Below are positions 2,999 to 61,960 of a stretch of DNA of 64,000 bases, one piece after another; positions within the stretch are counted from its first letter, which is position 1; each line of letters begins with the position of its first letter. The stretch covers positions 310,001 to 374,000 of the forward strand of contig NZ_JALKCH010000005.1 in the NCBI RefSeq assembly GCF_023016805.1, in the 5' to 3' direction. The DNA comes from Ancylobacter crimeensis. GTDB lineage: Bacteria; Pseudomonadota; Alphaproteobacteria; Rhizobiales; Xanthobacteraceae. The notes beneath the pieces are model-generated. The model saw nothing but the letters and a program-made list of their open reading frames with translations. It was not told where the DNA came from and made no database searches. Made by a program: the position numbers and the translations under genes.

Positions 2999-3742
2999 CT
3001 AGGCTTCCAGGGTCATGCGATAGGTGTAGGCGTCGCCGCGGAACAGGCCTTCGACATATTCGATCATGCGCTCCTTCTGGTCGAAGGAACGACGCTTGAT
3101 GAGGAGGCACGGCATGGGGGAGGTGAAGCCGAACACCGCGCTTTCCGCTGCGTTGGGGAAGGCGGCTTCGATGCTCTGCTCGCAATGGCCGAGCGCGGCG
3201 CCGTGGCTGGCGAGGTGGGCATAGACCGAGCCGGAGAGGTCGGCCTGCGCAAGGCTGGGGCAGTATTCGATGTTGTACCAGGCCACCTCACGGGCGAGGG
3301 GGGTGCCATCGCCATAACGCTCCCTCACCAGATGCAGGAACTCGGTTTCCGAGGGAAGCCCGAAGATGGAGGCGATGGAGCGGTCGGTGACCACGGCGCT
3401 CTCCACCACCCGGCTGCTGGCCCTGCGGCCGAGCGCCATCATTTCCTCGGTGAAGCCCTTCAGCCGGTTGATGCCGGACACCGCCGCCGGCTTCTGCACC
3501 ACATAGCCGAGCCGCCCGTGGGCCATGACGAGGCCGCGCCTGCGCAGCGCTGCGTAGACCCGCTGCACCGTGTTGCGGCTCAGCCCCAGCGCGCTGGCGA
3601 GATGGCGTTCCGCCGGCAGGGTATCGCCGGCACCGAGGGTGCCGTCGGCGATCATGGCGGCGACCTGTTCCTCCAGCTGGAGGTAGATCGGCATCGCCGT
3701 GTCGGCGCGCACATTCAACCGGTCGACAAGGGGCAGGGTCAT
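2999..3742 (-). CDS. GntR-family transcriptional regulator (HutC subfamily)
   Basis: A 247-residue regulator. The N-terminal winged helix (residues ~10-75) carries the GntR signature, including IYLQLEEQVAAMIADG, LPAERHLASALGLSR and NTVQRVYAALRRRG. The rest is a UTRA ligand-binding domain of the HutC type. ATG 3742 has AAGG 6 nt upstream, so upstream in-frame starts are not needed. It is the first gene of a leftward set with two FAD oxidases and most likely controls them and itself. A GTCTAGAC palindrome, the core of known HutC-subfamily operators, lies 27 nt before the start. The effector is unknown, probably the oxidase substrate. Confidence 0.92.
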   Translation of the reverse strand: MTLPLVDRLNVRADTAMPIYLQLEEQVAAMIADGTLGAGDTLPAERHLASALGLSRNTVQRVYAALRRRGLVMAHGRLGYVVQKPAAVSGINRLKGFTEEMMALGRRASSRVVESAVVTDRSIASIFGLPSETEFLHLVRERYGDGTPLAREVAWYNIEYCPSLAQADLSGSVYAHLASHGAALGHCEQSIEAAFPNAAESAVFGFTSPMPCLLIKRRSFDQKERMIEYVEGLFRGDAYTYRMTLEA

Positions 3743-3768
3743 ATGGACCTTCGTGGCGACGGCAGCCT

Positions 3769-21331: not shown

Positions 21332-23056
21332 TCAGGCGGTCGCACCCTCGATCAGCGGGAGGTAATGCTGCGGCTGGCGCATGACCATGAGGTCCTTGCG
21401 CCGCACGACATTGGTCGGATAGGGCGTGTCGAGATTCGTGGTGTCGATCTCCGCGACCGCTACGCCCTCGCCGGAAGCGATGATCGCCTCGCGGCGCGGG
21501 AAGGCGAAGGTGTCCGGCCCGAACACGCCGCTCGTGCCGCCATAACCGGCGGCCTCGTCCAGCACATTGGCGAAGGCGAGGAAGCAGTTGTTCTCGCCGG
21601 CCCGTGCCCGCATCAGGTGCCAGTGGTGCGGATCCGCCCCGGTCGGGATCGGGTAGTTCTGCGCCACTTTCGTGCCGGCATGGCCGAAGCTGAGCCGGCC
21701 GCGCAGCGCGGCCGGGCAGAGCAGGAGGTCGCAGCCGCGCAGGGCGAGAACCCGCCCGGATTCCGGGAAGGCGGCGTCATGGCCGACCATCAATCCGATC
21801 CGCCCGAGCGGGGTGTCGAGCACGGTCCAGTCGCCGCCGGGCGTCGCCCAATTGTGGTCGGCGGCATCGAGATGGAGCTTGCGGGCCGTCCCCAGATGCC
21901 CGCCGGGGCCGACCAGCGCGGCGGCATTGTAGAGCCCGTCCTCCGCCGCCTCGGCAAAACCGGCGGCAAGGAAGATGCCGTGCCGCGCGGCGATGGCAGC
22001 GAGCGAGGCCGCGACCTCGGCGCCGGGCAGCGGGGCGGGAGCGTCGAGCCCGGTCACCGCGCGCTCGGGGAAGACGACGAGGTCGGCGCCCGCTGCCTTC
22101 GCCTCGCCGGTCAGCTCCGCGATGCGGGCGAGGTTGCTGCTCGCGTCCGGGCCGGGGGCGAACTGCGCGACCGCGACCTTCGAGCGCCGGCCGGGGGGCA
22201 GCGGACGGTGGCCGTAGAGGCCGAAAAAGTCGAGCGGGTTCCACGAGAAGGTGCTGGTCGGCAGCTCCATGTAGAGTTCTGGCCGGCGCTGGGCGAACAC
22301 CTCCTCGCCCAGCACCCGGTGGGCCCGGGTCTTGTCGAGGTCGATTTCGGCGCGGGCGATGCCATCGCCGCTATCGACCACCGCCTCGATGCTGCCGTCC
22401 GGCCCGATGACGCAGGAGCCGCCGGAGAACTGCACCGTGCGCTCCAGCCCCCAACGATTGGCCTCGATGACGTAGCAGGAATTCTCGAAGGCGCGGGTGA
22501 TCCAGTAGGGCGCCGGGGTGCGCTCGGCCAGCCAGTTCGAGATGTGGCAGATGATGTCTGCCCCCTGCAGCGCGCAGAGCCGGGCGGTCTCGATGAAATG
22601 GATGTCCATGCAGATCAGCAGGGCGACGCGGCCGACCGGGGTGTCGAACACACGGTGCGCATCGCCATTCGCCGCCCATTTCGGCTCGGAAATATAGGGG
22701 TGGCTCTTGCGGTGGGTGCCGATGACGCCGCCGGGGCCGATGAGCACGGCGGCATTGTAGTAGAGCCCGGTCTGGGCATCGACCTCCGGCATGCCGATGA
22801 CGATGTGGCAGCCCTTTTCCTTCGCCAGCGCGGCGAAGCGATCCGTGGTCGGGCCTGGTACGGTCTCGACATAAGGCGCGACCTCGGCGCGGTCGAACCA
22901 GCAATAGCCGGTCGTGCCCATTTCCGGGGTGACGATGAGTTCCGCGCCGTCGTCCGCGGCCTCAGCCACCAGTGCGAGGAGCCGGGAGACATTGCGCTCC
23001 TTCTCCGCGAGGGTCGGCTCGAACTGGACGGCGGCGACGGTCTTCAGCGTGGCCAT
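21332..23056 (-). CDS. Tandem two-domain nitrilase-superfamily hydrolase (second domain lacks catalytic Cys)
   Basis: A 574-residue protein made of two carbon-nitrogen hydrolase domains. In domain 1 (about 1-275) the full triad is visible: Glu45 in TPEMGTTGY, Lys117 in HRKSHPY and Cys149 in LLICMDIHF. In domain 2 (about 290-565) Glu (FPERAVTG) and Lys (ARKLHLD) remain, but the nucleophile position reads GLMVGHDAAF, with Gly in place of Cys. Domain 2 is therefore predicted to be inactive. ATG 23056 has GGAG 8 nt upstream. It is the last gene of the amide operon, so a short amide, carbamoyl compound or nitrile is the likely substrate class. Single nitrilases are usually about 260-340 residues. 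Confidence 0.88.
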   Translation of the reverse strand: MATLKTVAAVQFEPTLAEKERNVSRLLALVAEAADDGAELIVTPEMGTTGYCWFDRAEVAPYVETVPGPTTDRFAALAKEKGCHIVIGMPEVDAQTGLYYNAAVLIGPGGVIGTHRKSHPYISEPKWAANGDAHRVFDTPVGRVALLICMDIHFIETARLCALQGADIICHISNWLAERTPAPYWITRAFENSCYVIEANRWGLERTVQFSGGSCVIGPDGSIEAVVDSGDGIARAEIDLDKTRAHRVLGEEVFAQRRPELYMELPTSTFSWNPLDFFGLYGHRPLPPGRRSKVAVAQFAPGPDASSNLARIAELTGEAKAAGADLVVFPERAVTGLDAPAPLPGAEVAASLAAIAARHGIFLAAGFAEAAEDGLYNAAALVGPGGHLGTARKLHLDAADHNWATPGGDWTVLDTPLGRIGLMVGHDAAFPESGRVLALRGCDLLLCPAALRGRLSFGHAGTKVAQNYPIPTGADPHHWHLMRARAGENNCFLAFANVLDEAAGYGGTSGVFGPDTFAFPRREAIIASGEGVAVAEIDTTNLDTPYPTNVVRRKDLMVMRQPQHYLPLIEGATA

Positions 23057-23124
23057 GAACGTGCTCCGGGCAGGAAAAGGGCGGCCGGCGCCGGGCGCCG
23101 GGAGTGGTGTTCGTGCGTCTGTCT

Positions 23125-23232
23125 TCCCTCTCCCTGCCGGGGAGAGGTGGCCTGCGAGGGGGCGAAGCTGCTGCGCACCGAGACCCCTCGCCCCAGCCCA
23201 CTCAACGTCGGGGAGAGGGCAGGGTGAGGGGG
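23125..23232. repeat. Palindromic intergenic repeat (CCCTCTCCC/GGGAGAGGG type)
   Basis: The gap between formamidase and nitrilase holds C-rich then G-rich arms: CCCTCTCCC at 23126 pairs with GGGAGAGGG at 23211, and CCCCTCGCCCC pairs with later GAGGGGG. A local hairpin TCCCTGCCGGGGAGA lies inside. Such elements are widespread between genes of alphaproteobacteria. Here it may attenuate or stabilise the transcript before the last gene. Confidence 0.6.
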
Positions 23233-23285
23233 CGTGCGGCAGGGGGAGGGACAGGCGCTTGCGGAGCCTTCCACCCCGCGCGACG

Positions 23286-24275
23286 TCAGCCGAGATACGA
23301 CTTCAGGATCGACGCCCCGAGCGTGTATTTCGGGTCCACCATGTTGCCCACTCGCACGCGGCCGCACTGGGTCAGCAGCATGTAGGCCTCCACCTCGTCG
23401 AAGCCGTAGTCGGCCGCCATCCAGCGGATGAGGTCGCGATAGGCCATGCGGGCGGCGTCCTCCATCGGGCGGGTGGAGCCGATGGACATGATGAAGTCCG
23501 CCGTCTCCAGCCGCGGGGTGGAGATCGTCCAGCCCTTGATCAGGTCGATCTGGATGGTGGTGACGGTCGGGTGCTCCAGCGCCACGCCGCACAGCTCGCC
23601 GTCGCCCTGGGTGGCGTGGCAGTCGCCGAGATAGACGAGGCCGCCCTTGGTGTTGACCGGAAGGTAGATCACCGCGCCGACGCCGACATCCGGCAGGTCC
23701 ATGTTGCCGCCGTAATAGTCCGGTTGCAGCGAGGTGATGGCCTCGATCTCCGGCGAGGTGCCGATGGTACCGATGAAGGGCACGTAGGGCAGGGTGATCT
23801 TGTCGTTCCATTTCGTGCCGGTCTCGGCGTCGACATGGAGCTTCTTCACCTTGATCGGCAACGCCGGATTCAGCATCGCCGTGTCCTTGGTGGGCACGAG
23901 GCCGCCGAAATCCGGCATGATGAGCGTGGTGCCCACCGGCTGCTCGCCGCGCGGCACGATGCTCTTGATGTAGATCGCGATGGTGTCGCCCTTTTCCGCG
24001 CCATTGACGAAGATCGGGCCGTTCTGCGGGTTGAGATAGGGGAAGTTCAGGATCTCGAGCGGGTTGTCCGTCTCGTGCTTGATCTTGCCCTCGAAGGCGT
24101 CGTGCGTCTCCGCCGAGACCACCGCGCCGGGATCCACGCTCAGCACCGGCTTCACATAGGGGCCGTAGACGTAGTGGTAGGTGCCCTGCACCTCTTCGGT
24201 GATGCTGAAGGATGGGCCCGGCTGGCCCTTGGCGAGGCCCTTCTTTGCCATGATGGATTGTTCGAGCCAGGACAT
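23286..24275 (-). CDS. fmdA: Formamidase/acetamidase
   Basis: A 329-residue cytoplasmic enzyme of the FmdA/AmdA family that hydrolyses short amides (formamide, acetamide) to ammonia and the acid. Family motifs are clear: ETHDAFEGKI near residue 60, a central LPYVPFIGTIG, and GDCHATQGDGELCG in the C-terminal half. Length agrees with short FmdA forms. ATG 24275 has GGGAG 8 nt upstream. It is immediately downstream of the amide/urea-type ABC transporter genes and in the same operon as the AmiC/AmiR regulators. The released ammonia is presumably used as nitrogen source. Confidence 0.93.
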   Translation of the reverse strand: MSWLEQSIMAKKGLAKGQPGPSFSITEEVQGTYHYVYGPYVKPVLSVDPGAVVSAETHDAFEGKIKHETDNPLEILNFPYLNPQNGPIFVNGAEKGDTIAIYIKSIVPRGEQPVGTTLIMPDFGGLVPTKDTAMLNPALPIKVKKLHVDAETGTKWNDKITLPYVPFIGTIGTSPEIEAITSLQPDYYGGNMDLPDVGVGAVIYLPVNTKGGLVYLGDCHATQGDGELCGVALEHPTVTTIQIDLIKGWTISTPRLETADFIMSIGSTRPMEDAARMAYRDLIRWMAADYGFDEVEAYMLLTQCGRVRVGNMVDPKYTLGASILKSYLG

Positions 24276-24295
24276 GTGATTGCTCCCTGTGGACT

Positions 24296-25009
24296 TCAGA
24301 CGGCGAGATGGCGGCGCATGGCCTCGCCATCGGCGAGGGCGTCGCGTTCGAGCTCGGCGACGATCCGGCCCTTGTCGAGCACGTAGCAGCGCTGCGCCAT
24401 GGCGCGGATCATGTCGATGTTCTGCTCGACGAGGACGATGGTGGTGCCGGTCGCGCGGTTCAGCTCGACCATGATGCGGGCGATGTCCTGCACGATGTTG
24501 GGCTGGATGCCCTCGGACGGCTCGTCGAGAAGGATCAGCGAGGGGTTCGCCACCAGCACCCGGCCGATGGCGAGCTGCTGCTGCTGGCCGCCGGACATGG
24601 TGCCGGCGCGCTGGTTCCAGCGCTCGCGCAGGATGGGGAAATAGGAGAGCACGCGCTCGCGGTCGGCCTCGCTCACCCCGCCGGCGCGCATGCCGCCGAC
24701 CGCGATGTTCTCGCCCACCGTCAGGCGCGGGAACACGTCGCGACCCTGCGGCACATAGCCGAGGCCGAGCCGGGCGCGCCGGTGCGCGGCCAGCCGCTCC
24801 ACCGCCTTGCCCTGATAGACGATGGAGCCCTGCGTGGCTGGGATCAGGCCGATCAGGCTCTTCATCAGCGTCGACTTGCCGACGCCGTTGCGCCCGATCA
24901 CGGCGACGATCTCGCTCTCCCGCACCTCGATGTCGAGGCCCTGCAGCACCGGCTTGCCGCCATAGCCGGCGCGCAGGCCGAGCGTGGAGAGCAGCACTTC
25001 CTTACGCAT
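24296..25009 (-). CDS. urtE: Amide/urea-type ABC transporter ATPase 2 (UrtE/LivF family)
   Basis: A 237-residue ATPase with Walker A GRNGVGKST (39-47), signature MSGGQQQQLAIGR and Walker B LILLDEPSEGIQPNI. The EGIQP segment is characteristic of UrtE among LivF relatives. Its start overlaps the end of the UrtD gene by 8 nt. Together with UrtB, UrtC and UrtD it would power uptake of the ligand of the binding protein. The urt symbol reflects sequence family only. The formamidase neighbour and AmiC/AmiR suggest short amides rather than, or in addition to, urea. Confidence 0.9.
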   Translation of the reverse strand: MRKEVLLSTLGLRAGYGGKPVLQGLDIEVRESEIVAVIGRNGVGKSTLMKSLIGLIPATQGSIVYQGKAVERLAAHRRARLGLGYVPQGRDVFPRLTVGENIAVGGMRAGGVSEADRERVLSYFPILRERWNQRAGTMSGGQQQQLAIGRVLVANPSLILLDEPSEGIQPNIVQDIARIMVELNRATGTTIVLVEQNIDMIRAMAQRCYVLDKGRIVAELERDALADGEAMRRHLAV

Positions 25010-25730
25010 GAGCCGTCTCCGCGACCTGACCGAGATAGATGGCGGCGACCCGCTCGTCGGCGACGATCTCGTCCACCGTGCCTTGCGCGAACACCTGGCC
25101 GAGATGCAGCACCGTCACCTTCTGCGCGACCTGCCGGACGAAGGCCATGTCGTGCTCCACCGCCAGCACGGTCATGCCGTCCGCATTCAGCCGCTGCACC
25201 ATTTCCCCGGTGGCGTGGGTCTCCTCCGGCGACATGCCGGCGGTGGGCTCGTCGAGCAGCAGCAGCTTGGGCTTGAGGCTCACCGCCATGCCGATCTCCA
25301 GCCACTGCTTCTGGCCGTGGCTGAGATTGCCGGCGAGGCGGTCGGCATCGGGAGCGAGCTTGAGGAAGTCGAGCAGCCGGCCGATCTCGGCGACAAGATG
25401 CGCCGGCTCATAATGGTGCTGCATCGCGATTTCGAGGTTCTGCCGCACGCTCAGCGCCTTGAAGATGCCGGGCACCTGGAACTTCACGCTCATGCCGCGG
25501 CGGATGCGCTGGAACGGCTTGAAGGCGGTGATGTCCTCGCCGTCGAACAGGATCTGGCCCGAACTCGGAAGATGCTCGCCGAGGACGAGGCGGAACAGGG
25601 TGGACTTGCCGGCGCCGTTCGGCCCGATGAGGCAGTGCACCTCGCCCGGCTCCAGCGCCAGGTCGACATTGTTGGTGACGTGCAGGCCGCCGAAGCGCTT
25701 GTTGAGGGCGCGCGTCTCGAGGATCGCCAT
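25002..25730 (-). CDS. urtD: Amide/urea-type ABC transporter ATPase 1 (UrtD/LivG family)
   Basis: A 242-residue ATPase with Walker A GPNGAGKST (36-44), signature LSHGQKQWLEIG and Walker B LLLLDEPTAGMSPEE. The LSHGQKQWLEIG form is the UrtD variant of the LivG signature. ATG 25730 has GGGAGA 8 nt upstream and shares a base with the stop of the permease gene (TGATG), a sign of translational coupling. It pairs with the second ATPase downstream to form the motor of a branched-chain-type importer. Confidence 0.9.
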   Translation of the reverse strand: MAILETRALNKRFGGLHVTNNVDLALEPGEVHCLIGPNGAGKSTLFRLVLGEHLPSSGQILFDGEDITAFKPFQRIRRGMSVKFQVPGIFKALSVRQNLEIAMQHHYEPAHLVAEIGRLLDFLKLAPDADRLAGNLSHGQKQWLEIGMAVSLKPKLLLLDEPTAGMSPEETHATGEMVQRLNADGMTVLAVEHDMAFVRQVAQKVTVLHLGQVFAQGTVDEIVADERVAAIYLGQVAETAHA

Positions 25731-26794
25731 CACACGTCTCCCGTTTTGCGTGAGCGGAACGGGCGGGCGATCAGCCGCGCGAAGGCGAAGGCGAGGCCCT
25801 GCGGTGCCAGCAGCACGGTCAGCACCAGCAGCACCCCCATCACCACCAGCGCATACTGGCTGCCATGGATGGTGAGCGCCTGGAACACCGAGAGCACAAC
25901 CAGCGTGCCGACCAGCGTGGTGGTGAGGTCGGAGCGCCCGCCCACCGCGACCCACACGATCGGCAGGGCCGCCGCCGTCATGCCCATGGAGGAGGGCGTG
26001 ATGTACTGGCCCCAGCTCGTGTAGAGCACGCCCGACAGCCCGGCCAGCATGGCGCCGATGACGAAGGCGCCGAGCTGGTATTTGCGGATGTCGTAGCCCA
26101 GCATCTCGGCACGCTCCGGGTTTTCGCGGATGGCGACGAGCACATTGCCGAAGGGCGAATTCACCAGGATGCGCAGGCCGAGATAGACCACCACCATCAG
26201 CGCCAGCACGACGTAATAGAGCTCGACATCGGGGAACAGCACGAGGTCGCCGCCCGGCCATGGCAGGGTCAGCGGGGGCATTGCGCTCATGCCGTTGAAA
26301 CCGTTGAGCCGGGCCTTGCCGATGTGCCATTCCGGGCCGGCGGTCTGCGCCATGAAGCGCTCCAGCACCAGCGTCACCGACAGCGTCACGATGCCGAGGA
26401 ACACCCCCGAGATGCGGCCGAAATAGAGGAAATAGCCCAACAGCACCGCGAAGAGCGCGGCGAACAGCACCGCCAGCACCAGCGCCACCAGCGTGAAACC
26501 GTAGGCCGCGCCGAAATTGATCGTCAGCACGCCGTAGGAATAGCCGGCGATGCCGAAGAAGGCGGTCTGGCCGAAGGACAGCGCGCCGCCATAGCCCCAG
26601 ATGAGGCTGAGGCCGAGCGCCATGAACACCCAGGTGAAGAAATACACCGTGTTGCCGACCGTGTAACCGTCGGAGAACAGCGGATAGGCGCAGGCCCCGG
26701 CCAGCACGACGAGAAAGCCGAGCCAGAACAGCGGCCCCCGGCCCAGCGTCTGCGGGCCTTCGAGACGGGAGAAGAAGCGGAAAGTCGCGTTCAT
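25730..26794 (-). CDS. urtC: Amide/urea-type ABC transporter permease 2 (UrtC/LivM family)
   Basis: A 354-residue inner-membrane permease with about ten hydrophobic segments. Family landmarks include SLIWGYGGALSFGQTAFFG and the cytoplasmic EAA-like loop AIRENPERAEMLGYDIRKYQ, which docks the ATPases. ATG 26794 has GGGAG about 9 nt upstream, and longer in-frame starts lack this. It sits 16 nt after the first permease gene and touches the next ATPase gene. Confidence 0.92.
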   Translation of the reverse strand: MNATFRFFSRLEGPQTLGRGPLFWLGFLVVLAGACAYPLFSDGYTVGNTVYFFTWVFMALGLSLIWGYGGALSFGQTAFFGIAGYSYGVLTINFGAAYGFTLVALVLAVLFAALFAVLLGYFLYFGRISGVFLGIVTLSVTLVLERFMAQTAGPEWHIGKARLNGFNGMSAMPPLTLPWPGGDLVLFPDVELYYVVLALMVVVYLGLRILVNSPFGNVLVAIRENPERAEMLGYDIRKYQLGAFVIGAMLAGLSGVLYTSWGQYITPSSMGMTAAALPIVWVAVGGRSDLTTTLVGTLVVLSVFQALTIHGSQYALVVMGVLLVLTVLLAPQGLAFAFARLIARPFRSRKTGDV

Positions 26795-26810
26795 GTGCGT
26801 TGCTCCCGGC

Positions 26811-27683
26811 TCAGGCGCGTTCGCGCAGGAGGAAGCCGGAGAGGCCGCGCGGCAGCACCCGGATGACGATGATGACGGCGAGCAGCAGGCCGATCTGGCC
26901 GAAGAGCTGGCCATAGAGCGAAGTCATGGTCGCCTTTACCACGGCGAGCACCGCGGCCGCCGGCGCGGTGCCGAGGAAGACGTCGGCCCCTCCGACCACC
27001 ACGGTCACGAAGGCCTCCATGATGAAGGTGGTGCCCATGGTCGGCACCAGCGTCATGGTGGGGGCGTAGAGCCCGCCGGCAAGCCCGGCGAGGCCCGCGC
27101 CGAGCGCGAAGGTGAGGGTGTAGACGCGGCGGGTGTCGACGCCGAGCGCGGCCGCCATGTGCGGCACCTGGATGGTGGCGCGGGCCATCACGCCGAAGCG
27201 GGTCCAGTTGAACAGCGCATAGAGCGCGGCCAGCACCACCAGCGCCGCGACGAACAGCACCACCCGGTAGAGCGAATAGGAATAGCCGCCGACCTGGAAG
27301 CTGCCGAAGGGCGTGCCGACCCCGGCCATGGTCGAGCCCAGCAGGATCAGCGTGCCCTGGGTCGCGATGAGGCTGAGGCCCCAGGTGGCGACGATGGTGT
27401 CCAGCGGGCGCTCATAGAGGTGGCGTATCACCACGATCTCGACCAGCGCACCCACCAGGGCCGCGACCAGCGCGCCGAGCAGTATGGCGAGCGGCAGCGG
27501 CAGGCCGGCATGGGCGGCCGAGACGGTGACATAGGCGCCGCACATGATGAACTCGCCATGGGCGAGGTTGATGACGCCCATCATGCCGAAGATGACGGCG
27601 AGGCCGCAGGCGGACAGCACCAGGAAGGCGAAGGCGTCGCCGAACTGGTAGAGGGCGGAGAAGGCGAGCGTTCCGACATCCAT
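26811..27683 (-). CDS. urtB: Amide/urea-type ABC transporter permease 1 (UrtB/LivH family)
   Basis: A 290-residue permease. Typical LivH/UrtB segments are present: VIFGMMGVINLAHGEFIMCG near residue 35 and ARATIQVPHMAAALGVDTRR (the ATPase-contact loop). The N-terminus MDVGTLAFSALYQ fits family length, but the ribosome site is weak (AAGG 11 nt away). The poor site and the 287-nt hairpin-bearing gap before it may lower its expression relative to the binding protein. Confidence 0.92.
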   Translation of the reverse strand: MDVGTLAFSALYQFGDAFAFLVLSACGLAVIFGMMGVINLAHGEFIMCGAYVTVSAAHAGLPLPLAILLGALVAALVGALVEIVVIRHLYERPLDTIVATWGLSLIATQGTLILLGSTMAGVGTPFGSFQVGGYSYSLYRVVLFVAALVVLAALYALFNWTRFGVMARATIQVPHMAAALGVDTRRVYTLTFALGAGLAGLAGGLYAPTMTLVPTMGTTFIMEAFVTVVVGGADVFLGTAPAAAVLAVVKATMTSLYGQLFGQIGLLLAVIIVIRVLPRGLSGFLLRERA

Positions 27684-27886
27684 CGGCGAGGGGGCCTTGC
27701 GGTTCGGGGAGGGACGGGTCCGGCGGTAGCGGGGCGGAAGGGGTGCCCCGGCCAGTGAGGGGGTCGGGCCGGGGCAGGCGCGGAACGGGCGAGGGGCCCG
27801 GCCGCGCATGGAGCGCTCCGCGCGCGGAGCACCCCGGAAAGCGGGCGGAGGATTCCGCTGGGGGGCATCGGGCGAGGCGCCGGGGA

Positions 27887-27947
27887 CATGCCGGCCGGAT
27901 TCCACAGGGGAGCTTCATCCGGCCGGCATGGTGCCCCGTGGGGCACC
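27887..27947. repeat. Paired strong hairpins between binding-protein and permease genes
   Basis: A perfect 14-bp inverted repeat CATGCCGGCCGGAT / ATCCGGCCGGCATG (27887-27900 and 27917-27930, 16-nt loop) is followed at once by GGTGCCCC/GGGGCACC (27930-27947). Neither has a T-run, so mRNA stabilisation or partial attenuation is more likely than full termination. This would favour the binding protein over membrane components, as intergenic hairpins do in other importer operons. The rest of the 27684-27970 gap has no gene. Confidence 0.75.
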
Positions 27948-27970
27948 CGTCGATCAGGCCGCCTGCGGCA

Positions 27971-29221
27971 TCAGGGCTTCGGGGGCGGGTTGGACGGCGT
28001 GTACTGGGCGTTCGGGTTGGACTTGGTCAGGTCGCAGCCCGCCTCGCCGAGCCAGTACGGCTTGATGTCCTGCCAGACCTTCGGGAAGTCGATCGAGTGG
28101 TCGGCATTCACATGCGCCAGATAGATGGTGTGCGACATGTGCTGGCTCTTGGGGTCGATGCAGACCTTGCCCTCCGGGGCGTCCATGCAGACGTCGCCCT
28201 GCGCGATCACCTTGCGGATGTCCTCGCGCTTGGTCGACTTCGCGCGCTCCACCATCTGCTTGTAGAGATAGACCGCGAGATAGGAGTTCTCGGCCTCCTG
28301 GTTCACATAGGGCTCGTTCGGGAACTTGGCCTTGAACTTGTCGTAGAACGCCTTGGACTGCGGGCTGTCGACCTCCTCGATGTAGTTGGTCGTCACATAC
28401 ATGTCCTTGAGCGATGGCGGCTTGAAGCGCTTGTGCTCGTAGCCCTGGCCGACATTGACCGAGGAAGCCATCGGCAGGCCGACATTGGCGGCCGCGGCCT
28501 GCTCGTAATAGGAGGCCTGCGCGGTGCCGACGAGGAGCGTCACTACGAAGTCGGGCTTGGCCTTCTGGATGTTCTGGATGTTCTGCGAGAACTGGGAGAC
28601 GCCGAGCGGGATGAAGTCCTCGCCGACCATCTCGCCGCCGTGCTCCTTGACGATGTTGCGCACCCATTCGGCCGAGATCTGGCCGAAATTGTAGTCGGCG
28701 GCGAGCGTGTAGACCTTCTTGCCGTACTTCTCCATCATCCACGGGATGAGGGTCGAGAACTGCTGCTCGGGCACCGCGCCGGTGACGATCATGTGCGCGT
28801 CGCAGACGCCGCCTTCATACTGGTTGTTGTAGAAGGCGAAGCCGTCGAGCTGGTCGACGATCGGGCGATAGGCTTCGCGCGAGGCCGAGGAGAAGCCGGC
28901 GAAGACCGCGTCCACCTTGTCGCGCTGCAGCACGCGGCGCATGAACTCCTGGTAGCGGGTGTTGTCGGACTGGGTGTCGTAGATCACCAGCTCCAGCGGC
29001 CGGCCGTCGATGCCGCCGGCCTTGTTGATCTCCTCGGCGGCGAGCTGGATGGCGTGCACCTTGCCGATGGTCGCCGCGGCGAAGTCGCCGGACTGGTCCT
29101 CCAGCACGCCGAGCTTGATGGGGTCGGCGGCAAGCGCGCCGGTGATGGACTGGGCGACGCCGAGCAAAAGCGTCCCCGTGAGGGCTGCGGCTCGCAGCCC
29201 CCGCATGGTCTTCGCGGTCAT
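27971..29221 (-). CDS. Periplasmic substrate-binding protein of an amide/urea-type ABC transporter
   Basis: A 416-residue type I periplasmic binding protein. The signal peptide is about 31 residues (cleavage after ITGALA). The mature part opens with the Leu/Ile/Val-binding-type IKLGVLEDQSGDFA. It matches FmdD/UrtA-like proteins for short amides and urea better than amino-acid binders, given its neighbours. Extra cysteine pairs (GGVCDAH, DVCMDAPEGKVC) may form disulphides. ATG 29221 has AGGAGA 8 nt upstream. It is the third gene of the operon, directly after amiR, followed by strong hairpins and then the permeases. Confidence 0.92.
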   Translation of the reverse strand: MTAKTMRGLRAAALTGTLLLGVAQSITGALAADPIKLGVLEDQSGDFAAATIGKVHAIQLAAEEINKAGGIDGRPLELVIYDTQSDNTRYQEFMRRVLQRDKVDAVFAGFSSASREAYRPIVDQLDGFAFYNNQYEGGVCDAHMIVTGAVPEQQFSTLIPWMMEKYGKKVYTLAADYNFGQISAEWVRNIVKEHGGEMVGEDFIPLGVSQFSQNIQNIQKAKPDFVVTLLVGTAQASYYEQAAAANVGLPMASSVNVGQGYEHKRFKPPSLKDMYVTTNYIEEVDSPQSKAFYDKFKAKFPNEPYVNQEAENSYLAVYLYKQMVERAKSTKREDIRKVIAQGDVCMDAPEGKVCIDPKSQHMSHTIYLAHVNADHSIDFPKVWQDIKPYWLGEAGCDLTKSNPNAQYTPSNPPPKP

Positions 29222-29246
29222 GGAGGCTTCTCCTGGTGGAAGGTGC

Positions 29247-29906
29247 TTATCGTCCGGCGCGTTTCCCCGCGCCGTGTACCGGTTCGTTGGCGACGGGAGC
29301 CGTGGCTCCCGTGCGGGCGAGATAGGCCTCGCAATAGTCCTCGAGGCTCTGGCGGGCGCGCATGGCTTCGCGGCGCAGGCTGTCATAGGCCGCGTCGTCA
29401 TCGAGCGCGGACTGCTTCATCCGCGCGATGATCGCCTTCACCACCGCCCGGCGCCCGCGCCGGCGGCGGTCCATGTCGTCGAGGCGATCCTCAAGGTCGC
29501 CGCGCAACAGGAACTGGTTGATACCGAGGAACAGCGCCGTGTAGACCGCCGCGCCCTGCACCGGCTTGCGCAAGAAGGAGGTGGCACCGAGCTGGATGAG
29601 CTGCTTCAGCCGGCTCGGCGCCTCGACGCCCACCAGCCCGATCACCGGAACCGGCGGCAGCCGGAAGGTCGCTTCGTTCTCCAGCGCCACCGGATTGTCG
29701 AGGTCGCCGTCGATGAACAGGATGTCGCGCTCGGACTGGAGACCGGCCATCTCGATCTGAGCGCGTCCTCCCACGAGGGCGGGATAGCTCGCCGTCACCC
29801 CGAGCTTGCCGAGCGTCGCCTCCAGGGCTTCCACCGCCGGAAGGTTCGCGGTGACGATGAAGGCCCGTCCGCCATTGAAGTTCTGAAGCAGTCGCGGTGC
29901 CGTCAT
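29247..29906 (-). CDS. amiR: AmiR-type ANTAR transcription antiterminator
   Basis: A 219-residue RNA-binding regulator. The N-terminal half is a pseudo-receiver fold. The C-terminal ANTAR domain is visible around AIIARMKQSALDDDAAYDSL and LRREAMRARQSLEDYCEAYL. In Pseudomonas AmiR is held inactive by AmiC and, when amide is present, binds leader RNA and prevents termination. The start overlaps the amiC stop (ATGA), so the two proteins are probably made in matched amounts. An intrinsic terminator preceded by hexaloop-like hairpins lies upstream of amiC and is its likely target, making the operon autoregulated. Confidence 0.92.
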   Translation of the reverse strand: MTAPRLLQNFNGGRAFIVTANLPAVEALEATLGKLGVTASYPALVGGRAQIEMAGLQSERDILFIDGDLDNPVALENEATFRLPPVPVIGLVGVEAPSRLKQLIQLGATSFLRKPVQGAAVYTALFLGINQFLLRGDLEDRLDDMDRRRRGRRAVVKAIIARMKQSALDDDAAYDSLRREAMRARQSLEDYCEAYLARTGATAPVANEPVHGAGKRAGR

Positions 29907-31069
29907 CTTACCACTCGCAGCGAAGGGTTGCGGGGTGCCACCGCGAAGCGCGGGGCCGACTGGACGAGATAGGGGTCGGGCCGCACCGGCCCGTCCGCCT
30001 CGACCATTATGTCGAAGCGGGCATTGGTGTTCGAGATGCCGATGCGCGGGGTGAGGAAGGCGTGCAGGGTCTGCGGGTCGATGCGCACCTCGCCCTGCGG
30101 GGCGGTGAGGTGCTGGCCGGTGACCGCCGCCTTCACCGCCTCCAGGTCGTCGGTGCCGGCGGCGGCGAGCGCGCCGATCAGCAGCTTCATGGCGATGTAG
30201 GAGGCCTCCGCATCCGCCGACATGGACGGGCCTGCGGGGTAGGCGGCGCGATAGGCGCTGGTGAAGGCGTGGTTGGCCGGGGTGTCGAGCGAGGAGAAAT
30301 AGACCGAGGAGGACAGGTGCCCGTCCCACGCCCCGTGCCCGATCTCCTCCAGCTCCGGCTCGGACAGCGTGCAGCTCGCCACCGGGATGGTGCGCGGCTG
30401 GTCGATGCCGTGCTTCAGGCAGGCGGCGCGGAAGGCGCGGAAGAAGGCATAGGCGCTGGTGCCGATGAGGTTGTTGAACACGAAGCGCGGCCGCGCCTCG
30501 AGGATCGCCTCGATCACCTTGTCGACTTCCGTGTCGCCGACCGGCACGTAGCGCTCCGCCAGCACCTGCCCGCCGCGCGCGGTCATCGCCTCGCGGAAGA
30601 TCCGGGTGTTCTCCCACGCCCAGATGTAGTTCGAGCCGATGCAGAAGGCGCTGCGTCCCGTGGTGGCAAGCATGTAGTCGACGAGCGGCAGCACGTGCTG
30701 GTTGGGCGAGGCTCCGGTGTAGATGACGTTGTTGGAACTCTCGAACCCCTCATAGTGGGAAGGGTACCAGAGCAGCGCGTCATGCTTCTCGAAGCAGGGG
30801 ATCACCTCCTTGCGGCTGGAGGAGGTGTAGCACCCCACCACATGCCGGATGCCGGAGGTGATGAGCTCGTGGCTGAGCATCCGATAGCGGGCCAGGTCGC
30901 CCTCGGGGTTCACCACCACCGGCTCGATGCCGGGGCCGGTGCCGGCCGCCGCGTGCTCGGCAATGGCGAGCAGGGCGCCGTTCAGCATGGAGCGCGCAAC
31001 GAGGCTGTAGGGGCCGCTCGTGGAGAGCATGACCCCGACCCGAAAATGCTGTGCGCCACGCCCGTTCAT
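29903..31069 (-). CDS. amiC: AmiC-type amide sensor, negative regulator of AmiR
   Basis: A 388-residue type I periplasmic-binding fold without a signal peptide, so it stays in the cytoplasm. The start MNGRGAQHFRVGVMLSTSG leads straight into strand one. Family segments include VVGCYTSSSRKEVIPCFEKH, LLWYPSHYEGFESSNNVIYTG and IGSNYIWAWENTR. By analogy with P. aeruginosa AmiC it binds small amides and releases AmiR. ATG 31069 is the first gene of the operon, 55 nt after a leader terminator. In Pseudomonas amiC lies downstream of the amidase; here the regulators lead. Confidence 0.93.
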   Translation of the reverse strand: MNGRGAQHFRVGVMLSTSGPYSLVARSMLNGALLAIAEHAAAGTGPGIEPVVVNPEGDLARYRMLSHELITSGIRHVVGCYTSSSRKEVIPCFEKHDALLWYPSHYEGFESSNNVIYTGASPNQHVLPLVDYMLATTGRSAFCIGSNYIWAWENTRIFREAMTARGGQVLAERYVPVGDTEVDKVIEAILEARPRFVFNNLIGTSAYAFFRAFRAACLKHGIDQPRTIPVASCTLSEPELEEIGHGAWDGHLSSSVYFSSLDTPANHAFTSAYRAAYPAGPSMSADAEASYIAMKLLIGALAAAGTDDLEAVKAAVTGQHLTAPQGEVRIDPQTLHAFLTPRIGISNTNARFDIMVEADGPVRPDPYLVQSAPRFAVAPRNPSLRVVR

Positions 31070-31123
31070 GCGTCCCGACCAACTCCCGCCCCCCGGATCG
31101 ATGCGCCGGGAAGGCCTGAAACA

Positions 31124-31156
31124 CAAAACGCCCGCCGGCCGTGTGGCCGCGGGCGT
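31124..31156 (-). terminator. Leader terminator upstream of amiC
   Basis: On the minus strand arms ACGCCCGC and GGCC pair with GGCC and GCGGGCGT (one bulged G, ACAC loop), followed by TTTTGTGTTT. It lies between a promoter and the first gene, not behind a gene, so it should stop transcription unless antitermination occurs. It is the logical target of AmiR. Confidence 0.8.
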
Positions 31157-31205
31157 CTTTGCCACCAACCTGCAGCACGGAATCCGTGCCGTCGTTGGAA
31201 ATGTT

Positions 31206-31240
31206 CACCGAATTTGGCGCGATTATGAGCATCCTTGCCC
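31206..31240 (-). promoter_or_regulatory. Candidate ANTAR dual-hexaloop RNA motif in the amide operon leader
   Basis: In the transcript, GGGC-AAGGAU-GCUC (31240-31227) is a 4-bp stem with a six-base loop having A at position 1 and G at position 4, as ANTAR targets require. Seven nt later CGCC-AAAUUC-GGUG (31219-31206) forms a second hexaloop with A1 but U rather than G at position 4. A longer hairpin GCACGG-AUU-CCGUGC (31189-31175) and then the terminator follow. The first loop fits well, the second only partly. Confidence 0.5.
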
Positions 31241-31254
31241 CGCGCTTGATTTTT

Positions 31255-31283
31255 AGGCTGACCCCTGGCCGTGGATTTGTCAA
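31255..31283 (-). promoter_or_regulatory. Candidate promoter of the amide operon
   Basis: On the minus strand a perfect -35 TTGACA lies at 31283-31278. A 17-nt spacer leads to CAGCCT (31260-31255), a poor -10. The predicted start falls just before the hexaloop hairpins, giving a leader of about 180 nt that contains the terminator. Confidence 0.5.
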
Positions 31284-31387
31284 GTGTCTTGCGTGTCGCT
31301 CCGGTAGGTCGGATCGAGAATCCTGTGCGCGGCGGGATCATGGCTCTATCCGTAGATGCCCCCGTTTCATGCTGGCGGATGCTTATT

Positions 31388-31406
31388 TTCTACCTACATA
31401 GTAGAA
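31388..31406. promoter_or_regulatory. Candidate Rrf2 operator
   Basis: TTCTAC-N7-GTAGAA is a perfect inverted repeat, extended on both sides by TATT and ATA with one bulge. It lies 27 nt upstream of the Rrf2 gene start, where autorepression would be expected. It is the only AT-rich palindrome in the divergent 363-nt gap between amiC and the Rrf2 gene. Confidence 0.5.
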
Positions 31407-31432
31407 TACAGGACAAACAGGATTCGCATTCC

Positions 31433-31882
31433 ATGCTGACCGCCAAAGGCAAATACGGCCTCAAGGCGATGATCCACCTCGCCGCGCTTGAGGCCGGGCA
31501 GATCGCCATGGGCGCCGAGATCGCCGCGGCCAACAACATCCCGAAGAAGTTCCTCGACGCCATCCTGCTCGAACTGCGCAATGCCGGCATGGTGCGCACC
31601 AAGAAGGGGCCCGGCGGGGGCTATGCGCTCTCGCAATCGCCGAAGAACATCCGCGTCGGCCACATCATCCGCGCGCTGGACGGTCCGCTGGCGCCCATCC
31701 AGTGCGCCAGCAAGAGCGCCTTCGTGCCCTGCGAGGATTGCCGCGACCTGCCGAGCTGCGAGGTCCGCATCACCATGGCCAAGGTGCGCGACGCCATCTC
31801 CGACATCCTCGACCGCATGACGCTGGAGGAGATGGTCGCCTTCGGCAAGACCGCCCATCCCGACCTGATGTATCATATCTGA
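31433..31882 (+). CDS. Rrf2-family transcriptional regulator with cysteine cluster
   Basis: A 149-residue winged-helix regulator (MLTAKGKYGLKAMIHLA, then NNIPKKFLDAILLELRNAG and KKGPGGGYALS). Four cysteines at residues 91, 100, 103 and 109 (C-x8-C-x2-C-x5-C) lie where IscR and RirA bind an Fe-S cluster, so sensing of iron, sulphur or oxidants is likely. Spacing differs from classical IscR (C-x5-C-x5-C). ATG 31433 has AGGA 10 nt upstream. It is divergent from the amide operon. A perfect palindrome before it may be its own operator. Its regulon is unknown. Confidence 0.9.
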   Translation: MLTAKGKYGLKAMIHLAALEAGQIAMGAEIAAANNIPKKFLDAILLELRNAGMVRTKKGPGGGYALSQSPKNIRVGHIIRALDGPLAPIQCASKSAFVPCEDCRDLPSCEVRITMAKVRDAISDILDRMTLEEMVAFGKTAHPDLMYHI

Positions 31883-52308: not shown

Positions 52309-55300
52309 ATGAACATGGAGCTGTCGCGGCGCGCGTTCTTGCGAACGGCGGGTGCGGGGCTCGCGGGGACCACGTTGGGAGCCATGGGCTTCGGCGCGGT
52401 CGAGGAGGCGATGGCGGCGGCCATCCGGCCCTTCAAGCTCGCGAACACCACGGAGACACGCAACACCTGCACCTATTGCTCGGTGGCCTGCGGGATCATC
52501 CTTTATTCGAAGGGCGATCTCAGGAAGGGCGAGCGTGCGGAGATCACCCATGTCGAGGGTGACAGCGATCACCCGACCAATCGCGGCACCCTGTGCCCCA
52601 AGGGTGCGGCGCTGCTGGATATCATCCATTCGAAGAGCCGCCTCCAGTTCCCGATGCTGCGCAAGGCTGGCTCCGACCGGTTCGAGCGGGTCTCATGGGA
52701 CGAGGCGCTCGACAAGATCGCCCGGGCCATGAAGGATGATCGCGATGCCAATTTTATCGCGACCAACAAGGACGGCGTGACGGTGAACCGGTGGACCACC
52801 ACCGGCTTCCTCGCTGCCTCCGCGACCACCAACGAAACCGCGTGGTGCACCTATAAGGTGGTGCGCTCGATGGGAATTGTAGCGTTCGACAATCAGGCAC
52901 GCGTCTGACACGGCCCGACGGTGGCGAGTCTCGCCCCAACATTTGGCCGTGGCGCTATGACGAACGCCTGGACGGACATCAAGAATACCGACCTTGTCGT
53001 GATCATGGGCGGCAATGCGGCGGAAGCTCATCCGTGCGGCTTCAAATGGGTCACCGAGGCGAAGGCCAATCGCGGTGCGAAGCTGATCGTCGTCGATCCG
53101 CGCTACACGCGCTCGGCATCGGTGTCGGACTATTACGCACCGATCCGGCAGGGTTCGGACATCGCCTTCCTGATGGGCGTCATCAATTACTGCATCCAGA
53201 ACGACAAGGTGCAGTGGGACTATGTCAAGGCGTTCACCAACGCCGCCTACGTCGTGAAGGACGGCTTTGCCTACAAGGACGGCTTGTTCACCGGCTATGA
53301 CGAGACCAAGCGCGACTACGATCGGTCGAGCTGGGACTACGTTATCGGCGAGGACGGTTATGCAGTGGTGGACGACACCCTGCAGAATCCGCGCTGCGTG
53401 TGGAACCTGCTGAAGGAGCACGTCTCGGTCTACACGCCCGAGATGGTGAACCGCATCTGCGGCACCCCGAAGGACAAGTTCCTGAAGGTGTGCGAGATGG
53501 TGGCCGAGTGTTCGTCCAAGACCAAGACCATGACCTCGATGTACGCGCTTGGCTGGACGCAGCATTCAAAGGGTGCGCAGAACATCCGCGGCATGGCCAT
53601 GCTCCAGCTCATCCTGGGCAATATCGGCGTGCGCGGCGGCGGCATGAATGCGCTGCGCGGACATTCCAACATCCAGGGGCTCACCGACCTCGGCCTCATG
53701 TCGAACCTTATCCCGGGCTATCTCAATATCCCGACCGAAAAGGAGAAGGACTTCGCCACCTACATGTCGACCCGCGGCTTCAAGCCGTTGCGGCCGAACC
53801 AGATGAGCTACTGGCAGAACTACAAGAAGTTCTTCGTCAGCTTCCAGAAGGCGATGTGGGGCAAGGCGGCGACCCTCGAGAACGACTGGAGCTATAGCTG
53901 GCTCCCGAAGCTCGACGTGCCTTCCTACGACATCCTCCGCGCCTTCGAGATGATGAAGAACGGGCAGATGAACCTCTATTTCTGCCAGGGGTTCAATCCG
54001 CTGCAGGCGGTGCCGAACAAGGCCAAGCTCGCCGAGGCGCTCGGCAAGCTGAAGCTGCTCGTCATCATGGACCCGCTGGAGACCGAGACCGCCCGGTTCT
54101 GGGAGAACCACGGCGTCTACAATCCGGCGGACCCCTCCGCGATCAAGACCGAGGTGCTTCAGCTTCCCACTACATGCTTCGCCGAGGACGAGGGCTCGCT
54201 CGTCAATTCGGGGCGCTGGCTGCAGTGGCATTGGCCGGGCGGTTCGCCTCCCGGCGAAGCCAAGACTGACAGTGCGATCATGGCAGGCGTCTTCCTGCGC
54301 CTGCGCGATCTCTATGCGAAGGAAGGTGGCGCCTTCCCGGATCCCATCGTCAATCTCGACTGGCGCTATGCGGACCCGAAGGAGCCGAAGGCGGAGGAAC
54401 TGGCGAAGGAGATGAACGGATACGTCATTTCCGACGTGATGGATCCTGCCGATCCGACAAAGAAGGTGCTGGAGGCCGGCAAGCAGCTCGCGAGCTTCGG
54501 CCTGCTGCGCGACGACGGCACAACGGCCTCGGGCTGCTGGATCTTCACCGGTTGCTTCACCGAGGCCGGGAACATGATGGCGCGACGGGACAATTCCGAC
54601 CCCGACGATACCGGCATGTATCTGAAGTGGTCGTTTGCCTGGCCGGCGAACCGGCGCATCCTCTACAACCGCGCTTCGTGCGACATCGACGGCAAGCCGT
54701 GGGATCCCTCGCGCAAGCTGATCGAATGGGACGGCGCGAAATGGGCCGGCTATGACGTGCCGGATATCGCGCCGACCGCCAAGCCGCATGATGTCGGGCC
54801 GTTCATCATGAACCCGGAGGGCGTTTCGCGCCTGTTTACCCGAGGCATGATGCGGGACGGGCCATTCCCCGCGCATTACGAGCCGTTCGAAAGCCCGGTG
54901 GTGAATGTCGTTGCCCCGAAGATCAAGGGCAACCCTGTCGCGCGCGTGTTCAAGGATGATCTCAGCCAGTTCGCCGAGACCGCGTCGCCTGAATTCCCCT
55001 ATGCCGCGACCTCCTATCGTCTGACGGAGCATTTCCACTACTGGACCAAGAACAATCACGTGAACGCGGTCCTTCAGCCGGAGTCCTTCGTCGAACTTTC
55101 GGAGGAGCTGGCGAAGGAGAAGTCGATCACCAATGGCGGCTGGGTGCGGGTCTGGTCAAAGCGCGGCTCGCTCTACGCCAAGGCCATGGTGACGAAGCGC
55201 ATCCGTCCGCTCACCTGCGACGGCAAGACGATCCATGTGGTTGGCATCCCGATCCACTGGGGCTTCATCGGCGCCGCGCGCAAGGGCTTCCCCGCCAATG

Positions 55301-61864: not shown

Positions 61865-61960
61865 GGAGGAGAAACATCGCCGGTGCGATGTCCGGACTTC
61901 AAATCCGGGAGAGGCTGCGAGCCGGTCTCTGGTGGGTTCGACCCCCACTCTCTTCCGCCA
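61865..61960 (+). tRNA. selC: tRNA-Sec (anticodon TCA)
   Basis: A 96-nt tRNA. It has an 8-bp acceptor stem GGAGGAGA / TCTCTTCC (one G-U), as only Sec tRNAs have. The anticodon loop CTTCAAA is inside CCGGA/TCCGG. A long variable arm follows (GAGAGGCTGCGAGCCGGTCTC region), then the T loop GGTTCGACC and an encoded CCA end. It lies beside selA/selB. No promoter could be fixed in the 194 nt before it. Confidence 0.96.

Follow-up and report, generated by a model that had tools for sequence, protein, structure and literature searches.

The locus examined here raises the question of how an operon for amide use that opens with its own regulator genes is switched on and off. In the 64-kb stretch of Ancylobacter DNA that was analyzed (the window), the minus strand carries amiC (31069-29903), encoding an amide-sensing negative regulator, and amiR (29906-29247), encoding an ANTAR antiterminator. 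The first-pass annotation had placed an AmiR/ANTAR leader in front of this pair and of the amide operon. Conservation, covariation, two covariance models (R2 and R3), and the position of AmiR behind AmiC bear this out, and in all likelihood the region upstream of amiC is an attenuator of the ANTAR type that belongs to the AmiC-AmiR system.

The regulator pair and the leader RNA

AmiC belongs to Peripla_BP_5, has no signal peptide by eye, and finds its best PDB matches in Pseudomonas aeruginosa AmiC (1qnl/1pea, E 3.5e-67). Judged by AmiC, Ancylobacter species (Xanthobacteraceae) are close relatives, in a group that also holds records named Xanthobacteraceae bacterium and Bosea sp. 117. AmiR has an ANTAR domain (PF03861, E 3.1e-7; 30.5 bits, cut-off 27.3), and its sole PDB match at E 0.001 is P. 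aeruginosa AmiR (1qo0_D, E 2e-4); the AmiR_N match is weak (22.9 bits, below the cut-off of 27), which leaves the pseudo-receiver half less well supported than the rest of the assignment. Judged by their sequences, the two proteins appear to form an AmiC-AmiR pair, an amide-binding-type protein beside a pseudo-receiver/ANTAR protein, and in all 92 leader entries described below, repeats included, the AmiR match starts 0 to 48 nt behind the AmiC match. Equivalents of EutV residues were placed in AmiR by spacing; for Lys149, an offset of two residues was allowed by eye. The window AmiR keeps the equivalents of Tyr164, Arg168, and Met172 and, with that offset, Lys149; those of Asn173 and Arg177 are not kept, being Arg and Ser by spacing. 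Across the 92 entries, the Tyr164 equivalent is Y in 88 and F in 4, and the Arg168 and Met172 equivalents are R and M in every one. The rest of the putative nine-gene operon (21332-29401, minus strand, where the ORF edge at 29401 lies upstream of the likely start) encodes a urea/amide-type ABC transporter consisting of a substrate-binding protein, two permeases, and two ATPases, together with an FmdA_AmdA-family formamidase and a double carbon-nitrogen hydrolase (nitrilase-type amidase). Gene order and spacing suggest that the nine genes are cotranscribed.

The whole leader covers approximately 31254-31119 of the minus strand, ahead of the amiC ATG at 31069; the leader features that follow are all on that strand. 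The TTGACA promoter element reported in the first-pass annotation is present as a -35 element at 31283-31278, and a weak -10 element, CAGCCT (31260-31255), in which A2 and T6 are kept, follows 17 nt past it; transcription would start near 31248. A divergent Rrf2-family regulator gene (31271-31882, plus strand) has an upstream region that abuts this promoter. The first hairpin, P1 (31245-31217), has an outer stem GCGCG/CGCGC and an inner stem GGGC/GCUC, so that the inner unit GGGC-AAGGAU-GCUC (31240-31227) is nested in a longer stem; its hexaloop AAGGAU (31236-31231), with A at position 1 (A1) and G at position 4 (G4), had been recognized from the start. After 18 nt comes an insert hairpin (31198-31165) closed by CCAAC/GUUGG, and a single U separates its end from the start of P2 (31163-31152), GGC-AAAGAC-GCC, which supplies the second ANTAR hexaloop (31160-31155) and is the putative antiterminator. 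The intrinsic terminator (31156-31119), correctly predicted between the promoter and amiC, is built from the stems ACGCCC/GGGCGU and CGGCC/GGCCG (stem region 31156-31128) followed by UUUUGUGUUU, with the U tract at 31128-31119. P2 and the 5' arm of the terminator have 31156-31152 in common, and the two structures are mutually exclusive by sequence. The leader thus has two hairpins of at least 3 bp with six-base loops, A1 and G4 in both loops (AAGGAU and AAAGAC), a P2 that overlaps the 5' arm of a terminator, and an ANTAR protein encoded in the same operon, where amiR adjoins amiC.

The second hexaloop had originally been sought elsewhere. The sequence AAAUUC (31215-31210; hairpin 31219-31206) can be drawn as a loop, but across 28 related leaders 55.4% of its cells are paired, compared with 57.4% in shuffles; because its pairing is no better than that of shuffles, it is not a conserved element, and it was ruled out as the second ANTAR loop. 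The reservation that the second loop lacks G4 and is an imperfect match falls away with AAAGAC as the P2 loop. The further hairpin of the first-pass annotation does exist, at 31198-31165, but it is the insert between P1 and P2, and the A1/G4 rule rejects it as a recognition loop. A third hexaloop inside this insert (CC-AACGAC-GG, which is like the Ancylobacter P2 loop) was also considered and discarded on inspection by eye: at this place most Bradyrhizobium-type leaders have CCAACACC, CCAACGCC, or CCAACATC, none of which offers G4, and the CCAAC/GUUGG stem pairs in all 66 leaders that have it, with a few double changes.

When folded alone, the RNA forms P1, the insert hairpin, and the terminator. 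The minimum free energy is -63.8 kcal/mol with the terminator and -54.1 kcal/mol with P2 forced, a cost of about 10 kcal/mol; as the terminator form is the more stable, the default state is predicted to be "off." The fold z-score is -3.5 on the leader strand and -2.75 for nearly the same stretch of the opposite strand, which also folds well, as is usual for inverted repeats. We searched both strands of the window with a descriptor that asks for a pair of A1/G4 hexaloops and a terminator overlapped by the second of them. It matched at exactly one place, and 40 Markov controls, each of 64 kb, gave no match. This was its second version; an earlier one, which required the terminator stem to be nearly perfect, did not pick up the window leader and matched once in 20 controls. 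A sigma-70 consensus scan found no promoter at the leader, and a terminator scan did not list the leader's terminator. At gathering score, Rfam gave no family in the leader and, in the rest of the window, two selenocysteine elements and nothing else; with E values up to 10 allowed, the lowest in the leader was 1.7, and the matches were at chance level.

Conservation and covariance models

A total of 106 leader loci (26 including the window's and 80 more) gave 92 entries with a P1, and 12 of the other 14 were repeats; the remaining two, L059 and L063, have no P1 with a 4-bp stem, although by eye L059 has a 3-bp stem. Dropping L113, which has no P2 match, and merging further repeats left 84 distinct leaders. 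Exact TTGACA is found in 71 of these 84, a count favored by the search because leaders were located from a TTGAC anchor, and a -10 element with A2 and T6, 17 nt on from the -35, is found in 80. One leader without the insert, L029, was excluded from alignments A1 and A2. The 28-leader set comprises 25 leaders of the Ancylobacter genus group (the window's included), two of Kaistia, and one of Labrys. Its P1 loops have A1 in 26 and G4 in 28 leaders, and its P2 loops have both A1 and G4 in all 28; the P2 stem pattern and the first base of the P1 loop are favored by the search, because P2 was looked for as GGC-N6-GCY (present in 91 of the 92 entries) and the P1 loop was required to start with A or G. 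In the comparison of related genomes called for at the outset, the hexaloop code is kept in the genus, in Kaistia, and in Labrys, and P1 and the terminator stem are conserved.

Covariation points to the same structures. In the terminator form, 14 of 29 pairs have both partners changed among the 28 leaders, a number reached by 0 of 500 shuffles, with a covariation score of 0.238 compared with 0.121 in shuffles; sliding the partners leaves 2 to 5 double-changed pairs. In the P2 form the count is 8 of 21 (1 of 500 shuffles has as many), and among 66 leaders the terminator form has 15 of 29 (0 of 500 shuffles). As the shuffles keep relatedness, these numbers are not probabilities. The terminator stem is paired in 98.7% of cells of the 28 leaders and has changes on both sides in 6 of its 11 pairs, and the P1 stem keeps pairing through double changes in both the 28 and the 66 leaders. 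The outer stem of P1 shifts register by eye: in the window and some relatives, 31245-31241 pairs with 31221-31217, which differs by two bases from the register used in the counts. Unaided, RNAalifold recovers P1, the closing stem of the insert, and the terminator. The three stem pairs of P2 are invariant in the 28 leaders, so that covariation is silent on P2, and the support for this hairpin is the conservation of its loop and its position.

Because no Rfam family matches the leader, the covariance check proposed in the first-pass annotation was made with models built here, and it supports the leader. Model R2 was built from 38 Bradyrhizobium-type leaders (Bradyrhizobium, Rhodopseudomonas, Tardiphaga, and others) and includes no sequence named Ancylobacter and one from an unclassified Xanthobacteraceae metagenome-assembled genome (MAG); its best match is 31111-31254 on the minus strand at E 4.4e-26, with the next at 0.11. 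Model R3, built from 16 leaders outside the genus, three of which stand before nitrile hydratase (sources: Methylobacterium, Xanthobacter, Kaistia dalseonensis, Mesorhizobium, Arenibaculum, MAGs, and other genomes), matches the same place at E 1.5e-18, with the next at 3.5. In scans of the own genome, where 150 first-look candidates were scored out of 5,797 and 3,628, the leader is the only significant match, and the next have E values of 0.23 (R1) and 0.12 (R3). When R1 was run against 297 genomes of the order, 41 had a match at E 0.01, in many cases a weak one. Class-wide, R3 with strict filters matched 5 of 385 genomes at E 0.001, among them the own genome and one other already known.

The linker and the loop code in relatives

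The linker between P1 and P2 is 53 nt by count (31216-31164), and about 19 nt stay unpaired with the insert hairpin folded. A survey of actinobacterial ANTAR RNAs, which found dual hexaloops by covariance search, as was done here, but describes few of them upstream of a predicted terminator, used a linker of 2 to 25 nt as a curation rule (PMC8164766). The 53-nt linker breaks this rule by count and falls within it only when the insert is folded, and the leader is therefore classed as a variant of the ANTAR dual-hexaloop target. In Enterococcus faecalis the eut linkers are 5 to 12 nt, unlike the long, folded linker here, and a linker of 14 nt drastically cut induction in vivo (PMC3369931); lengthening a eut linker by 20 nt abolished antitermination in vitro (PMC8934654). 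PMC3369931 itself speaks of the linker of ANTAR targets only as a "variable linker." A search that accepts linkers of at most 25 nt should overlook leaders of this class.

The CCAAC/GUUGG insert is found in 66 of the 84 distinct leaders and is absent in 18. Its closing stem is paired in all cells of the 66 sequences, and the inner stem pairs in only 46.6% of cells (66-leader alignment A2), the Bradyrhizobium-type register being different by eye. Aligned to R3, the window carries 30 extra nucleotides in a single uninterrupted stretch inside the insert hairpin. We sorted the 84 leaders and 6 later ones by linker, discounting about 10 nt that belong to the P1 outer stem, taking 36 nt as the limit between short and long (our own choice), and counting unpaired nucleotides from a simple fold. 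The insert class (n = 66) has a mean linker of 51.5 nt with 16 unpaired, long linkers without the CCAAC insert (n = 7) have a mean of 48 nt with 15 unpaired and a predicted hairpin in each, and short linkers (n = 17) have a mean of 24 nt with 18 unpaired. The hairpins of the long linkers are of unrelated sequence and in several cases (L150, L151, L099) stand directly before P2; their z-scores run from -1.0 to -3.6, and several are barely stronger than shuffles. Two short linkers (L102 and L103) fold slightly as well. At the site of the insert, other genera carry either a short linker or a hairpin of unrelated sequence. These predicted folds are suggestive, although not proof, of a folded linker that keeps the unpaired distance between P1 and P2 alike across the classes, and by such comparison the insert hairpin would act as a spacer.

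The insert hairpin could instead be a separate control element within an AmiR target, one that acts in pausing or RNA stability, for instance, or that binds another protein. CCAAC/GUUGG and the CAUUU preceding it are conserved in sequence beyond pairing, which is more than a plain spacer needs. Nevertheless, the seven other long linkers carry hairpins of different sequence, 17 leaders have a short linker instead, and the mean unpaired length is alike in the three classes, and we regard a separate element as doubtful, if worth keeping in mind. The spacer reading also bears on a debated point, the need for two hexaloops at a fixed spacing. In one model the ANTAR dimer touches both loops at once, and in the other it passes from P1 on to P2 while the RNA is being made (PMC3369936; PMC8934654); leaders that naturally have or lack a hairpin insert of about 30 nt offer a test of space versus time.

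The loop code has drifted in the Bradyrhizobium-type group (38 loci between L050 and L097). There, P1 keeps A1 in 36 of 37 six-base loops and has G4 in 14 of 37 (one further loop has seven bases), and P2 has A1 in 2 of 38, G at position 1 in 36, and G4 in 33. In four short-linker leaders of Xanthobacter and Methylobacterium (L102, L103, L105, and L108), the P2 loop likewise begins with G, not A. EutV Lys149 contacts G4 (PMC8934654), and the AmiR residue equal to it by spacing and eye is Lys with normal loops and Arg in nearly all Bradyrhizobium-type proteins. P1 has G4 in 43 of 44 leaders with Lys and in 16 of 39 with Arg (one more has Ser), counts that are not independent because the changes follow one clade; L104 and L110 have Arg at this position, yet their loops are normal. 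What is new in this analysis is a putative folded, exchangeable spacer and the drift of the loop code in relatives; the kind of leader is known. The two are joined in a single proposal: the leaders would be ANTAR targets of a class of their own, with a folded, exchangeable hairpin setting the P1-P2 distance, so that the spacing rule would concern three-dimensional distance and not length or transcription time, and the Bradyrhizobium-type loop code would have shifted along with the Lys-to-Arg change in AmiR. In our judgment, the balance for this joint proposal is even.

Proposed mechanism, known systems, and second leaders

It is highly probable that the leader is an AmiR-responsive transcription attenuator of the amide-use operon. 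By analogy with work on AmiR, NasR, and EutV, RNA polymerase would start near 31248 on the minus strand and make P1, the insert hairpin, and P2 in turn. With no amide, AmiC would hold AmiR, P2 would yield to the terminator, and transcription would stop before amiC apart from some leak. In the presence of amide, AmiC would release AmiR, which would bind the P1 loop and then the P2 loop, the insert hairpin folding away about 34 nt to bring P1 and P2 within some 19 unpaired nucleotides of each other. With P2 held, the terminator could not form, and the amiC-amiR-transporter-formamidase-nitrilase genes would be transcribed; readthrough would also raise AmiR itself, a positive feedback.

Alternatively, the terminator might be constitutive or tied to another signal, for example, the divergent Rrf2-type regulator, with the hexaloops as relics. 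The Bradyrhizobium-type leaders, which lost parts of the loop code and kept the stems and the terminator, speak for this reading. However, the code is kept in the Ancylobacter genus, Kaistia, and Labrys and largely in the 18 leaders without the insert (P1 A1 in 18 and G4 in 17; P2 A1 in 14 and G4 in 16), and a similar leader precedes nitrile hydratase in some other genomes, which makes this alternative very improbable. Leader-peptide attenuation, in which ribosome position on a frame from the AUG in the P1 loop (GGAUGC) would set the terminator, is the least credible reading, for although that frame is open across the leader (ORF 30780-31283, minus strand), its AUG requires an A at loop position 5, seen in 14 of 28 leaders, and would sit some 16 nt from the likely transcript start, within the P1 loop, and ANTAR-type regulators adjoin.

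Several known systems come close to this leader. The P. aeruginosa amiE leader is controlled by a regulator pair that is of the same kind by sequence and serves an amide-use operon (amiEBCRS), and it is described with P1, a terminator-overlapping P2, and A1/G4 loops, as here (PMC3369931; PMC3369936). The P. aeruginosa leader precedes amiE, whereas the present one precedes amiC and a transporter operon, and an insert hairpin parts P1 and P2 here when the two are compared by description. The first-pass annotation had contrasted the positive loop of this operon with the Pseudomonas layout. The gene order does differ, but the contrast was overstated: amiC and amiR share the leader-controlled operon there (PMC3369936), so that a positive loop would exist in Pseudomonas too. 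The E. faecalis eut leaders recognized by EutV are likewise dual hexaloops with A1 and G4 and with P2 in the terminator arm, and the window P1 resembles the published consensus AGCAANGRRGCUY without fitting it exactly. The Klebsiella oxytoca nasF leader is an attenuator with a P1 loop carrying A1 and G4 and a terminator, as here, but the sensor of NasR is a NIT domain, and the genes are different (PMC3369936). Ramesh et al. reported ANTAR matches before urea transporters, and their tables may already list some leaders of this class (PMC3369931). Searches of the open literature, in part limited to the best 8 to 10 matches, listed no title that deals with this leader, with nitrile hydratase genes preceded by an AmiR leader, or with an ANTAR spacer that folds.

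In two genomes of one genus (L150, at 5127, and L151, at 4911, both minus strand) and in K. dalseonensis (L157, at 4549, minus strand), the nitrile hydratase beta and alpha genes (Pfam assignment) are preceded by a second leader, of the short type, that points in the direction opposite to the amiC leader. These second leaders have A1 and G4 in both loops, as the descriptor demands. R1 also matched the nitrile hydratase leader in one of the L150/L151 genomes and in a third genome of that genus; in the own genome, the R1 and R3 scans (150 candidates scored each) gave no second significant copy. Nitrile hydratase makes amides, so that one regulator could serve both nitrile and amide use. The arrangement suggests that the nitrile hydratase genes belong to the AmiR regulon, which would widen AmiR to a nitrile-to-amide-to-ammonia regulon in some genera.

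The own genome has two further AmiC-like/ANTAR pairs (L152 and L153), with a luciferase-like monooxygenase beside one and genes that include a family-5 solute-binding protein beside the other, and the descriptor found no hexaloop leader at either. By eye, L153 has at 3494-3745 a TTGACA, a GGGC-AACAGC-GCCC hairpin, and a T run before the amiC-like gene, a leader-like stretch that fails the A1/G4 rule. Elsewhere in the window, a SECIS_3 element (52903-52961, plus strand) and a selenocysteine tRNA (61865-61956, plus strand) point to a selenoprotein. Such a selenoprotein is often a formate dehydrogenase, and these signs may be of interest because formamidase yields formate.
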